Shown: positions 23,683 through 27,396 of the stretch, in pieces
How positions within the stretch are numbered: the first letter of the stretch is position 1
How the letters are laid out: each line of letters opens with the position of its first letter
NCBI GenBank assembly: GCA_028872955.1
Contig: JAGWNX010000029.1
Coordinates: forward strand, 1-38,442
Origin: Acidobacteriota bacterium
GTDB lineage: Bacteria > Acidobacteriota > Terriglobia > Terriglobales > Acidobacteriaceae
Direction of reading: 5' to 3'
Length of the DNA: 38,442 nt
Made by a program: the position numbers and the translations under genes
Notes under the pieces: generated by a model
The model's input: only the letters and a program-made list of their open reading frames with translations
Database searches by the model: none
What the model was told of the DNA's origin: nothing

Positions 23683-24477
23683 ATGCCCGTACATGCCTAT
23701 CGAGACCTGAAGCCCACGCCTGAAGCTGAAGCCATCTACCGCCGCTGGCTCTCTAACCTGAACGAAGAGTTCATGCGCCACCAGGGAGTTGATCGTCGGT
23801 CTGAGATTGTGCGCGACGAGCTGACGCAGATCTTTCTGGGACGCACGCATGGCGGCAGGAGGCAGGCAAGCCTGACCAGCGAGCTCGGCACCAATGTGAT
23901 GGCAGAGAGCTTTGATCCGCGCAACGCCACGCTGGAGCCGGAGTACTACGGCGATGTGGATGCCGAACTCTATGCCGTGCGCAAGCCGCTCATCTACTTC
24001 TGGCAGATGTTCGACCGCTCGCCGCTGGGGCTCAACCACTGGCTGGGCTTTCGCTTCCGCTGTATGCTGGGGCGGCATATCTTCCGCCACCTCGGGAAGA
24101 GCGTCAAGATCTTCCACAATGTGGAGTTCACCTTTGGCTACAACCTGACCATCGAAGACAACTGCACCATTCACAAGAATGTGCTGCTGGACGACCGTGG
24201 CGAGATTATTCTGCATGCCAACTCCAGCGTCTCGGACTACGCCAACATCTACTCGCATACGCACGACATCAACCATCAGGCCGATGTGACCAACAAGGTG
24301 ACGGAGATTGGCCCCCGGGCGCGCGTTACCTACCACGCCACGGTTCTGGCTGGTGCCAAAGTGGGCGAGAATGCCATGCTCGGTGCCATGGGCCTGGCTA
24401 CGCGCGATGTGCCCGACGCCACGGTTGCCGTGGGCATTCCGGCGCACGTCAAACGGCACAAGAGTCCCGACCAGTGA
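23683..24477 (+). CDS. left-handed beta-helix (hexapeptide) acyltransferase
   Basis: 264-aa cytoplasmic transferase. After an all-alpha N-terminal part (about 1-140, unusual for small maltose-acetyltransferase types), hexapeptide repeats run from about 140 to 255 (VKIFHNVEFTFGYNLTIEDNCTIHKNVLLD ... VLAGAKVGENAMLGAMGLATRDVPDATVAVGIPA). The loop with SHTHDIN (His192/His194) matches the catalytic-His position of LbH acetyltransferases. The acceptor is unknown; a sugar is most likely. It lies between the SIMPL gene and the protease-like gene on the same strand. Confidence 0.85.
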   Translation: MPVHAYRDLKPTPEAEAIYRRWLSNLNEEFMRHQGVDRRSEIVRDELTQIFLGRTHGGRRQASLTSELGTNVMAESFDPRNATLEPEYYGDVDAELYAVRKPLIYFWQMFDRSPLGLNHWLGFRFRCMLGRHIFRHLGKSVKIFHNVEFTFGYNLTIEDNCTIHKNVLLDDRGEIILHANSSVSDYANIYSHTHDINHQADVTNKVTEIGPRARVTYHATVLAGAKVGENAMLGAMGLATRDVPDATVAVGIPAHVKRHKSPDQ

Positions 24478-24514: not shown

Positions 24515-25219
24515 ATGAGCATGACCGTCGTTCTCGCCCTGTTTGAGTTTGTTGTCCTGGTGCTGGCCATCTCGGTGCACAACGCCGTGCAGGCCTGGTA
24601 CGCCAATCGCAAAGGCGACCCCACGGCGCGCATGTTGGGCTATGTCTCGCTCAATCCGGTCAAGCATGCGGATGTCTTCGGCACGCTGCTTTGGCCGGCA
24701 ATCTCGATCGTTCTGTTTCACAGCAACCTGTTACTGGGGTGGGGCAAGCCGGTGCCGATTACCACGCGGAACTTCCGGCATCCGGGCCGCGATGAGATGC
24801 AGGTCTACCTCTCCGGGCTGGTAGCGCACCTGCTGGCTGCCGCTGCCTGCCTGTTGCTGCTGGTGGTGCTCAAGCACACGATTCCTGCAGCGGCCAACCA
24901 GCTGGGCGTGGCCTCGTTTCTGGCCCTGGGAGTGACGGATATACCCACCGAGGGGCTCTCTGCGCTGTTTCCCATCATGCTGTTCCTGTATCTCGGCATC
25001 GTAACCAACCTGCTGCTGTTCGTCTTCAACCTGCTGCCGTTGCCCTCAGTCGATGGCGGCAAGGTGCTGCGCTACTACCTGCCCTACAACGCGCAACAGA
25101 CCTTTGACAACCTGGGCATCTATCTGATGTTCGGCTTCTTCTTCCTGGGCTACCGCATCATCATGCTCTTCTTTGTGCCGCTGCTGGTGCTCTTCAACGG
25201 CTTGCTGCATCTGTTGTAG
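24515..25219 (+). CDS. site-2 protease (M50) homologue lacking the HExxH motif, predicted pseudoprotease
   Basis: 234-aa membrane protein with the layout of bacterial Rip/YwhC-type site-2 proteases: an N-terminal helix carrying the metal motif, the conserved GDPTAR, LNPVKHADVFGTLLWP, GWGKPVPI and a late NLLPLPSVDGGKVL segment with Asp180. In active members the first helix has HExxH; here residues 22-26 are H-N-A-V-Q, so both the catalytic Glu and the second zinc-binding His are gone. Loss of two of three essential residues predicts no zinc protease activity, while the fold is kept. It is directly upstream of trpS, the usual acidobacterial place for this gene. The read is unambiguous here, with no frameshift in the surrounding 234 codons. 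Confidence 0.88.
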   Translation: MSMTVVLALFEFVVLVLAISVHNAVQAWYANRKGDPTARMLGYVSLNPVKHADVFGTLLWPAISIVLFHSNLLLGWGKPVPITTRNFRHPGRDEMQVYLSGLVAHLLAAAACLLLLVVLKHTIPAAANQLGVASFLALGVTDIPTEGLSALFPIMLFLYLGIVTNLLLFVFNLLPLPSVDGGKVLRYYLPYNAQQTFDNLGIYLMFGFFFLGYRIIMLFFVPLLVLFNGLLHLL

Positions 25220-25288
25220 CCGCAGCAGTTACGCGGCAGGCGCGATATCCGCCGCCCGGTATCCTGTAACATCGTGATCGGACAGGAA

Positions 25289-26470
25289 ATGAACGATTTG
25301 AATACCAACGCCTCGCGTCCGCGCGTGCTCTCGGGCATGCGTCCCACCGGCCGACTGCACCTGGGCAACTACATGGGCGCCCTGCACAACTGGGTGCAGC
25401 TGCAGCACCAGTACGAGTGCTACTTCTTCATTGCGGACTACCACGCGCTCACCACCGACTACGCTGACACCTCAGCGCTACGCAACAACATCCGCGAGGT
25501 CGCGCTGGACTTTCTGGCCGCAGGCCTGGACCCTGAGCGCTGCACGCTCTTCATCCAGAGTGACGTGCCGGCGCACTTTGAGCTGCACACGCTGCTCAGC
25601 ATGATTACTCCCGTCAGCTGGCTGGAGCGCGTGCCCACCTACAAAGATCAGCAGGAGCAACTGAAGGAGAAGGACCTGGCCACCTACGGCTTTCTCGGCT
25701 ACCCGCTGCTACAGTCTGCCGACATTCTGCTCTATCAGCCGAAGTATGTGCCCGTCGGCAAAGATCAGGAGGCGCACGTCGAGATCACCCGCGAGGTGGC
25801 TCGCCGCTTCAACTCGCTCTACCCCGGCGCCATCCACTTTGGCCCGGAGGCCGCCCCCTGGGAGTTGGAGGCCGTGAAGACCAAGGCCCGCAAGATCGCC
25901 GGCGACCCTGCCCGGCAGAACTTCTCCACCCACGAACTGGTGCAGGCCGCGCACCAGACCAAGCTCAAGTCGCAGTGGTTTGTTGACACCGTGCTGCCGG
26001 AGCCGGATGTGCTGCTGACCCCCTCCCCCAAACTGCCGGGCACCGACGGGCGCAAGATGTCCAAGAGCTACCAGAACACGATTCTGCTCTCGGATCCGGA
26101 GCCCGAGGTTCGCGCCAAGCTGAAGACGATGGTGACGGATCCTGAACGGGTGCGCCGCACCGACGCGGGCAACCCGGACGTCTGCCCGGTGTTCGATCTG
26201 CACCGGGTCTTCTCGCCAGAGGCGGTGCAGCAGCAGGCGCGAGTCGGCTGCACGACGGCAGGCATCGGCTGCATCGAGTGCAAGGGCTGGCTGGCGGACC
26301 ACGTCGTCGCCGAGTTGGCACCGATCCAGCAGAGGCGCCAGCACTTTGCCAACAACCTGGTGGAGGTGGAGGCGATCTTTTCCGCCGGTGCGCGCCGCGC
26401 TGCGCAGCGTGCCGCACAAACCATGCAGCAGGTCCGCGAGGTCGTTGGCCTGCGCCCAGGCAGCCTATGA
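25289..26470 (+). CDS. trpS: tryptophanyl-tRNA synthetase
   Basis: Class I synthetase charging tRNA-Trp. From ATG 25289 the protein is 393 aa, with SGMRPTGRLHLGNYMGAL (HIGH-like), YPLLQSADILLYQ, VPVGKDQEAHVEITREVARRF and KMSKS at 256-260. The C-terminal domain contains an unusual CTTAGIGCIECKGWLADHV block that fits the anticodon-binding part of long bacterial TrpRS. GTG 25274 would add five residues. AGGA lies very close to ATG 25289, so the start is uncertain by a few codons. The stop codon overlaps the scpA start (ATGA). Confidence 0.95.
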   Translation: MNDLNTNASRPRVLSGMRPTGRLHLGNYMGALHNWVQLQHQYECYFFIADYHALTTDYADTSALRNNIREVALDFLAAGLDPERCTLFIQSDVPAHFELHTLLSMITPVSWLERVPTYKDQQEQLKEKDLATYGFLGYPLLQSADILLYQPKYVPVGKDQEAHVEITREVARRFNSLYPGAIHFGPEAAPWELEAVKTKARKIAGDPARQNFSTHELVQAAHQTKLKSQWFVDTVLPEPDVLLTPSPKLPGTDGRKMSKSYQNTILLSDPEPEVRAKLKTMVTDPERVRRTDAGNPDVCPVFDLHRVFSPEAVQQQARVGCTTAGIGCIECKGWLADHVVAELAPIQQRRQHFANNLVEVEAIFSAGARRAAQRAAQTMQQVREVVGLRPGSL

Positions 26471-27396
26471 CCAACGAGCACGAACTGCCACCGCAACCCG
26501 CGCAAGCTGAGGTCTCTGCCGAGCCCTTTGCTCTGGAGCCGAAGCCTGTGCCCCCTGCGCCCGAGGCGAAGCGCCCCTCGCCCGAAAAGCAGGAGGCGTC
26601 GCAGTCGCCGTTCTCCGTCACCGTGGGCCAGGTCTACGATGGCCCGCTCGATCTGCTGCTCGACCTGATCCGCAAGCAGAACATCGACATCTACGACATT
26701 CCCATCGCGCGCATCACCAGTCAGTTCCTGGAGTACACGCATCACCTGAAGCAGAATGATGTGGACTCAGCCGGCGAGTTCATCTACATGGCCTCGCTGC
26801 TCATCCACATCAAGAGCAAGATGCTGCTGCCGCGCGACCCCTCCGACGTGACCGGGACCGACGCGGAAGATCCGCGACGCGAACTGGTGGAGCGTTTGCT
26901 GGAGCATGAGCGCTTCAAGGCCGCAGCGCAGATGCTGCTGCAGAAGCAACAGATTGAAGAAGCCACCTGGACCAACCCGGGCATGCGCTACTTCCGCGCG
27001 GAGACCCAGGCCGCAGGCACAGACGCCGGGTTGGAGCAGGAGATTGCCGCCGATACCGTAGACCTGGTGCGCGTCTTTCGCCAGGTGCTGGACAGGCTGC
27101 GGGCACGGCCCGTGCTGAACGTGGACGAAGAGTCTGTCACCGTGGCGCAGATGATCGACTACGTCAAGCGCAGACTGCTGCTGGAGGACAAGCCTGTCAG
27201 CCTGCGACGCCTGCTGCATAACACCCACACTGAGCGCGCTCTGATCTGCATGTTTCTCGCCCTGCTGGAGCTGGTTCGCCTGCAGGCCGTGCTGCTGCAT
27301 CAGCCCGCCACGCTTGGCGACATCCTCATCAAGAAGACCAACGCCTTCGAGAATGTCTTTACGGAGCAGCAGAGCACGCGCGACGACTGGCGCTAG
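26467..27396 (+). CDS. scpA: segregation and condensation protein A (kleisin)
   Basis: Kleisin subunit that, with ScpB and SMC, condenses and segregates the chromosome. The 309-aa protein opens with a Pro/Glu/Ala-rich disordered extension (about 1-57), then shows the N-terminal SMC-neck-binding block VYDGPLDLLLDLIRKQNIDIYDIPIARITSQFLEY and FIYMASLLIHIKSKMLLPR. The C-terminal winged-helix-like part contains ALICMFLALLELVRLQ. ATG 26467 overlaps the trpS stop. Unlike the usual arrangement, scpB does not follow; two minus-strand genes lie between. Confidence 0.96.
   Translation: MTNEHELPPQPAQAEVSAEPFALEPKPVPPAPEAKRPSPEKQEASQSPFSVTVGQVYDGPLDLLLDLIRKQNIDIYDIPIARITSQFLEYTHHLKQNDVDSAGEFIYMASLLIHIKSKMLLPRDPSDVTGTDAEDPRRELVERLLEHERFKAAAQMLLQKQQIEEATWTNPGMRYFRAETQAAGTDAGLEQEIAADTVDLVRVFRQVLDRLRARPVLNVDEESVTVAQMIDYVKRRLLLEDKPVSLRRLLHNTHTERALICMFLALLELVRLQAVLLHQPATLGDILIKKTNAFENVFTEQQSTRDDWR

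Follow-up and report, generated by a model that had tools for sequence, protein, structure and literature searches.

The gene at positions 24515 to 25219 raises the question of what becomes of a site-2 protease (S2P) when the residues with which it should cut are replaced and the rest of the protein is kept: is the gene decaying, has its product a task that requires no cutting, or has the active site been rebuilt? The gene lies in the window, by which we mean the whole stretch of DNA analysed (38,442 nucleotides, from an Acidobacteriota bacterium). A sequence-only reading had described the product as an S2P homologue carrying HNAVQ instead of HExxH and retaining the fold-specific segments. Both descriptions are accurate. 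The open reading frame runs on the plus strand from the ATG at 24515 to the stop at 25219 (234 aa), its residues 22-26 are exactly HNAVQ, HExxH with the catalytic Glu and the two Zn-binding His is absent, and GDPTAR, LNPVKHADVFGT, GWGKPVP and NLLPLPSVDGG are all found as quoted. The HNAVQ observation is real, and it is part of a broader pattern than the single gene then considered. The features discussed below are as follows.

23683..24477, strand +: hexapeptide-repeat acyltransferase-like gene, immediate upstream neighbour (ORF, Pfam)
24515..25219, strand +: S2P-fold membrane protein gene (PF02163; HDxxQ clade), predicted to be non-proteolytic (ORF, Pfam, tree, model)
24578..24592, strand +: HNAVQ replacing HExxH, aa 22-26 (translation, alignment)
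24614..24631, strand +: GDPTAR, aa 34-39, retained family segment (translation, alignment)
24650..24685, strand +: LNPVKHADVFGT, aa 46-57, retained family segment (translation, alignment)
24737..24757, strand +: GWGKPVP, aa 75-81, retained segment (translation, alignment)
24815..24829, strand +: GLVAH, aa 101-105 (alignment)
25028..25060, strand +: NLLPLPSVDGG, aa 172-182, with the retained Asn172 and the third metal-ligand Asp180 (translation, alignment)
25274..26470, strand +: trpS, immediate downstream neighbour (ORF, Pfam)
26467..27396, strand +: scpA-like gene, overlapping the trpS stop (ORF)

The trpS gene starts 55-70 bases past the S2P stop, depending on the start codon chosen, and the gene at 26467..27396 is one that we take to be scpA-like from the common S2P-trpS-scpA gene order.

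Family membership and fold

The profile PF02163 (Peptidase_M50; MEROPS family M50) matches the window protein with 30.6 bits against a cut-off of 27.2; this alignment spans aa 92-209 only, with the HExxH part outside the matched stretch, and the profile matches all 129 members of the homologue alignment (E <= 0.001). An AlphaFold2 model of the window protein, built with this 129-sequence alignment, has a mean pLDDT of 94.8 and a pTM of 0.90. The nine entries that match it best all belong to S2Ps (Z 8.4-11.0), eight of them being structures determined by experiment and one an integrative model; the next match is an unrelated chain with Z 5.7. Foldseek gave no match to the model at E <= 0.001, with the S2P of M. 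jannaschii (3b4r) ranked at the top.

The window protein shares with the canonical S2Ps (M. jannaschii 3b4r, E. coli RseP 7w6x and B. subtilis SpoIVFB 8vjl/8vjm) the fold, the first Zn-binding His, the Asp of the LDG motif and the Asn of NxxPxP, but differs from them in that the catalytic Glu and the second Zn-binding His are replaced, and consists of 234 aa without a second Pfam domain above the cut-off. The third Zn ligand, the Asp of the LDG motif, is present in the window as VDG (D180) and does not vary across the 129 aligned sequences. Further M50 matches in the same genome are a gene resembling RseP, which has HEFGH and LDGG, one gene with HELGH and one with RELAR; the HEFGH and HELGH genes indicate that canonical S2Ps are present besides the HNAVQ protein.

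Two motif classes at one locus

A match to the window protein was found in 58 of the 62 genomes of its own genus (g1), including 46 of the 47 good ones, with one match per genome, and a wider search of the family gave a match in 236 of 299 genomes. We read 125 loci, namely those of all 58 matched genomes of g1, all 26 of genus g70, 17 of the 18 of genus g38, a single locus for each of 20 further genera of the family and four loci from the neighbouring family; most family matches outside g1, g38 and g70 thus lie beyond the loci read, and the remaining g38 gene was left out as it is in two pieces and looks like one split gene.

Among the 121 family loci, 35 have HDxxQ, two HDxxE, one HNxxQ (the window), 82 HExxH and one QExxH, and the four outgroup loci are all HExxH. 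The 38 loci with Asp or Asn at residue 23, referred to here as the D/N class, account for 11/58 loci of g1, 1/17 of g38, 26/26 of g70 and 0/20 of the other genera. Within the 125 loci the HN state is confined to the window, members of its clade commonly having HDxxQ instead. In the QExxH copy, a same-slot orthologue (L105, G330:C1:2462680-2463372), the motif reads QECAH, the first zinc His being changed to Gln and the Glu and second His being kept.

These counts refine the view that the catalytic Glu and the second Zn-binding His are simply gone. Both, which make up two of the four catalytic residues, are indeed replaced, and the 38 orthologues of the D/N class share this change as a conserved, inherited trait; however, what stands in their place is a nearly fixed Asp (Asn in the window) and Gln, and the first His and the LDG Asp are kept. 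Relatives with HExxH at the same locus, which had been named, together with accelerated, neutral change, as a sign of decay, do occur (82/121), but they belong to a separate gene lineage. The HExxH orthologue of a sister species shares the gene slot, is of similar length and is 38-50% identical to the window protein; it differs in having HExxH and, mostly, GPxSN and PPLDGS.

The position before trpS, which had been called the usual one, is usual but not universal, and insertions occur. Within 500 bases downstream, trpS is found on the same strand in 21/38 D/N-class loci and 71/83 other family loci; it lies at 660-1137 bases in five D/N loci and four others, and was not found within the flanks of 0.4-1.6 kb in 12 D/N loci and eight others. 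Four D/N loci without a near trpS (L030, L031, L032 and L048), when read further, have it at 2.3-5.2 kb, followed by the scpA-like gene, and no trpS was seen over 10 kb in two HExxH loci (L014 and L019). In all four loci of the outgroup, the scpA-like gene directly follows the S2P gene.

Two other explanations for the HDxxQ gene were considered and set aside. No extra paralogue beside an HExxH copy was seen in g1, g38 and g70, where every genome that gave a match gave just one (g1 58/62, g38 18/19 and g70 26/28 with a match); some genomes of other family genera have two. A plasmid-borne gene is likewise unsupported, matches among plasmids being scarce and remote (18 among 72,556 records, none reaching 60% identity).

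The D/N class has a remodelled site

Twenty alignment columns are nearly disjoint between the 38 D/N members and the 83 others, 18 of them besides residues 23 and 26 (23, 26, 52, 64, 69, 70, 71, 73, 77, 80, 91, 94, 104, 105, 155, 178, 182, 204, 213 and 217). The pair at residues 23/26 is DQ in 35 members, DE in two and NQ in one. N105 corresponds in the class to Q (27), H (10) or N (1), P178 to F (25), S (6), A (3) or others, and S182 to G in 38/38; the PPLDGS of the HExxH forms is x-x-DGG in the class. The region of GLVAH in the window is mostly GPxSN in HExxH forms and mostly GPxA[QH] in the clade, P102L being private to the window within the clade; G77 of GWGKPVP is typical of the clade, most HExxH forms having A, and in LNPVKHADVFGT the window has A52 against F/Y in 36/38 clade members. 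At the same time, 32 columns are invariant in 38/38, including H22, G34, D35, T37, N47 and P48 as well as N172, P175, P177, D180 and G181. As judged from the alignment, the D/N class has a remodelled site rather than one showing scattered decay.

Gene history: one clade, probable replacement in place

In the S2P tree, in which 34 rows represent the D/N class (38 less four near-copies), the class forms one clade with an SH-aLRT support of 98 without the motif columns and of 99 when 31 motif and co-changed columns are dropped. The window belongs to this clade (34 rows, support 99), but with Asn where the other 37 of 38 have Asp. In the rpoB tree, for which 26 of the 30 genomes asked for were available, the D/N class is scattered: holding it together is rejected (p-AU 7e-45), and at least three changes of class are forced, six by parsimony, with 35 of 500 shuffles being as low. 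The tree of the adjacent trpS (81 rows) forces at least seven class changes, 12 by parsimony.

Two close genomes, G234 (HDxxE) and G157 (HExxH), illustrate this discordance. They are sisters on rpoB (support 100), and their trpS genes are 91% identical, their S2P proteins 50%. Their flanks (loci L302 and L303) have the same block order. Nucleotide identity is 73-82% on the upstream side, up to a point 115 bases short of the S2P start, 85-86% from about 50 bases after the S2P end, and 65% in the S2P block itself; beyond trpS, a stretch of 2.5 versus 4.4 kb cannot be aligned. The comparison suggests that the S2P difference between them apparently results from a near-exact gene replacement in place. 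A tree in which the G234 S2P is made to group with the HExxH copies of two relatives from g38 is rejected (p-AU 0.008). The window itself has a trpS that groups with those of three HExxH genomes (support 99; about 81% identical), the S2P proteins being 47-50% identical.

The simplest reading of these sequence comparisons would be repeated in-place gene replacement by transfer and recombination; it is also possible that one of two ancient copies was lost, but no genome with both forms was found in g1, g38 or g70. The HExxH copies, compared with each other, have an S2P identity of 0.5-0.6 at a trpS identity of 0.81-0.93. They thus look exchanged among themselves, suggesting that the slot itself is prone to replacement. 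That two forms swap at one locus could mean that they do the same job, which would speak against a non-proteolytic role of one of them.

Selection on the clade and on the window copy

The sequence-only reading had proposed that purifying selection combined with conserved loss of the catalytic pair would support a pseudoenzyme, and for the clade this combination is found, its close pairs having low dN/dS. In pairs chosen by hand, NG86 dN/dS was 0.047, 0.053, 0.056, 0.065, 0.081, 0.114 and 0.167 for seven HDxxQ pairs and 0.012, 0.043, 0.053 and 0.064 for four HExxH pairs; three more pairs, with the window or its closest copy L007, gave 0.146, 0.150 and one undefined value. When binned by trpS identity, S2P identity was similar in both classes except in the 0.75-0.80 bin (HDxxQ 0.584 vs 0.689); trpS was usable in 20/38 D/N loci and 58/87 others and is itself exchanged, which makes it a rough yardstick.

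The statement that the gene is not decaying fares well for the clade, but it is less secure for the window copy, which changes faster than its closest copy. Three private changes in the window (D23N, R43Y and P102L) are at positions invariant in the other 37 members, and it also departs from the clade at A52, S64 and N71; another member, L093, has five private changes, all conservative (among Leu/Ile/Met and Gly/Ala). In Tajima tests of the window against L007 with a consensus outgroup, unique changes numbered 21 to 6 in the S2P (chi-square 8.3) and 13 to 7 in trpS (1.8). Non-synonymous changes in the S2P were 15 to 3 and synonymous ones 6 to 14 (Fisher p 0.0013), and the same count was 7 to 5 in trpS and 5 to 7 in the upstream hexapeptide gene, the latter showing no non-synonymous excess. 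Such figures are what would be expected if the HDxxQ clade were functional and the window copy were under relaxed constraint and being lost, HN having no function of its own.

Several observations speak against this explanation, which we regard as rather improbable. The frame is intact, and dN/dS against L007 is 0.146, at a dS of 1.46 that is near saturation; the Tajima statistics obtained with seven single outgroups vary widely (S2P 1.3-15.2; trpS 0.03-9.3, in mixed direction); and, of the good genomes in the genus, 46/47 carry the gene. Genome-wide change may, moreover, account for much of the speed, since rpoB of the window genome is also fast: non-synonymous changes were 29 to 5 and synonymous ones 134 to 60 (p 0.06), or 27 to 3 and 145 to 66 with more outgroups (p 0.017), in a comparison in which the window and G014 are not sisters on rpoB. 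The window gene is a fast-changing member of its clade, possibly under relaxed constraint. As HNxxQ was read in only 1/125 loci and Asn and Asp are one base change apart, the HN codon might also be an artefact of sequencing or assembly, the true gene being an ordinary HDxxQ one. We consider this very improbable, because the clade as a whole has the Gln half of the change, HNxxQ also occurs in other phyla, and the window copy carries additional private changes.

H[DN]xxQ outside the family

A degenerate scan of 84,980 species genomes for H[DN]xxQA(x6)GDxTA returned at least 80 loci, and 46 among the 80 matches listed are S2P-like by a profile of the homologue alignment: 23 from the clade described above, 15 of the Massilia/Telluria/Herbaspirillum type, four from Paenibacillus and four from Deinococcales. 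It should be noted that the scan preselects H[DN]xxQ, which means that neither the frequency of other HExxH losses nor a preference for [DN]xxQ can be read from it. One of the 23 clade members (L208) is on a contig titled Verrucomicrobia bacterium Tous-C9LFEB, and its first 60 S2P residues read as L052 (G309) of Acidobacteriaceae; a wrong title or a binning error may be involved.

The Massilia group (HDAAQAF, HNAAQAY) forms its own clade (support 99) among HExxH copies of Burkholderiales. The 37 loci read from that family, which exclude 112 further matched genomes, divide into eight DQ, two NQ and 27 EH. In this group, trpS lies directly downstream in 5/9 loci; no match to trpS or scpA was found in L139, L147 and L169, each read for more than 3 kb downstream, and one more locus ends too close. 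None of 8/8 Massilia-group genomes has a second S2P copy of this kind, so that an extra paralogue is unsupported here too. The idea does hold for Paenibacillus, where an HExxH copy is also present in 4/4 genomes; there, a scpA-like gene is directly downstream in 2/2 informative loci, the other two of the four ending too close. Neither trpS nor a scpA-like gene was found in 4/4 Deinococcales loci.

In two of the four Deinococcales genomes, the HNxxQ homologue lies directly beside an S2P with HEYGH (L227/L235, G378:C76:88911-90091, and L230/L238, G377:C5:13720-14743), and by their sequences these neighbours are possibly an inactive/active pair. In the HN copy of G377 (L207), the LDG Asp is also lost (LSG). 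Asn instead of Asp is thus seen in two Massilia and four Deinococcales copies as well as in the window, which suggests that an acid at the Glu position is not always needed. The tree shows two separate origins of H[DN]xxQ, and those of Paenibacillus and Deinococcales would probably be separate as well.

Pseudoprotease or re-tuned enzyme

Our best reading is that the members of the HDxxQ clade are non-proteolytic membrane proteins with the S2P fold, that is, pseudoproteases, a functional assignment that we favor with some reservation. The altered form is an old, conserved lineage in the slot of the normal protease, and its members probably have a function there that involves no cutting. The occurrence of a trpS or scpA-like neighbour in 5/9 Massilia-group and 2/2 informative Paenibacillus loci speaks for this reading, and the inconstant neighbourhood outside the family, seen in three of the nine Massilia-group loci and in 4/4 Deinococcales loci, speaks against it. 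In SpoIVFB, according to the consulted excerpt of PMC11486902, zinc is bound by H43, H47 and D137, and the E44Q mutant is without proteolytic activity; the matching window positions are H22, Q26, D180 and, for E44, N23. The buried site of the clade would hold, instead of a catalytic zinc, a polar cluster of H22, D/N23, Q26, H/Q105, N172 and D180; in the window protein, the additional change from Asp to Asn would leave no general base. The substrate cleft might still bind a transmembrane helix or a stretch resembling a signal peptide without cutting it, and the HDxxQ protein could then act as an adaptor that holds clients or as a competitor for other membrane proteases. The regulatory or scaffolding role raised in the sequence-only reading would likewise be a putative one.

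Such a working logic would be comparable to that of rhomboid pseudoproteases. In the consulted excerpt of PMC7231995, the adaptor role of YqgP, a B. subtilis rhomboid that serves FtsH, is said to need an open active site rather than activity, and the principle proposed to be common to YqgP and the iRhoms/Derlins, to which our protein is likened by analogy, is a membrane protease fold that holds clients uncut; these proteins differ in being rhomboids, a serine protease family, and YqgP itself is active. Within the S2P family, EGY3, a chloroplast homologue, is classed as a pseudoprotease and is highly conserved in plants, as stated in an excerpt of PMC9355673. EGY3 is a plant thylakoid protein, whereas the window gene is bacterial, has the HDxxQ signature and lies upstream of trpS; for the window protein, it is the motif replacement that is shown.

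However, Asp in 37/38 members and Gln or Glu in 38/38 is more than a dead site obviously needs, and could mean that some chemistry is retained. HDxxQ might then be a re-tuned active site in which His, Gln/Glu, Asp and perhaps H/Q105 hold a metal and Asp serves as the general base. The protein would then be an intramembrane protease that is slow or limited in its substrates, and the window copy, with Asn, a member that lost activity. Agreeing with this are the conservation of H22 and D180 in 38/38, the presence in two members of Glu, which could bind a metal, in place of the second His, the change of the Asn of GPxxN to H or Q in 37/38, and the exchange of the two forms at one locus. It speaks against a re-tuned site that metals are seldom bound by Gln and that Asn replaces Asp in the window, the two Massilia and the four Deinococcales copies, L207 of Deinococcales also being without the LDG Asp. 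Mutations in HExxH and LDG reduce S2P activity, according to the part of a review consulted (PMC10202637). On balance, we regard a re-tuned site as unlikely, and retain the pseudoprotease as the preferred reading.

A wider and more tentative proposal is that the main job of the trpS/scpA-linked S2P does not depend on HExxH chemistry: several phyla would have converted separately to H-[D/N]-x-x-Q, and the two forms would trade places like alternative alleles. The pattern would then reflect either an S2P pseudoprotease that recurs in bacteria or a second type of active site that has gone unrecognised. In the open-licence literature, judged mostly from the opening lines of abstracts, we found no bacterial S2P pseudoprotease described, and the terms M50, S2P and site-2 are absent from the text of a 2024 review of inactive metallopeptidase homologues (PMC11266112). 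The sharing of a slot by the conserved HDxxQ lineage and the active form, together with its recurrence in other phyla, provides natural pairs of close genomes with either form, with which one could test whether proteolysis is how this S2P class acts in the first place.

The window genome contains, outside the window, a second M50 homologue (L002/L312, G000:C115:1-1005) in which [VIA]RE[LVITG]AR replaces HExxH. The copy is cut by the contig end; the homologue has a longer C-terminal part that, like that of SpoIVFB, appears to resemble CBS. The best matches in the neighbouring family have HEL[AGS]H in 10/10 genomes; they are distant (21-29%) and may be another paralogue. The RExxR form is present in 15/15 same-genus matches read, the own copy included, and by its sequence this homologue is a candidate for a second, independent pseudoprotease.
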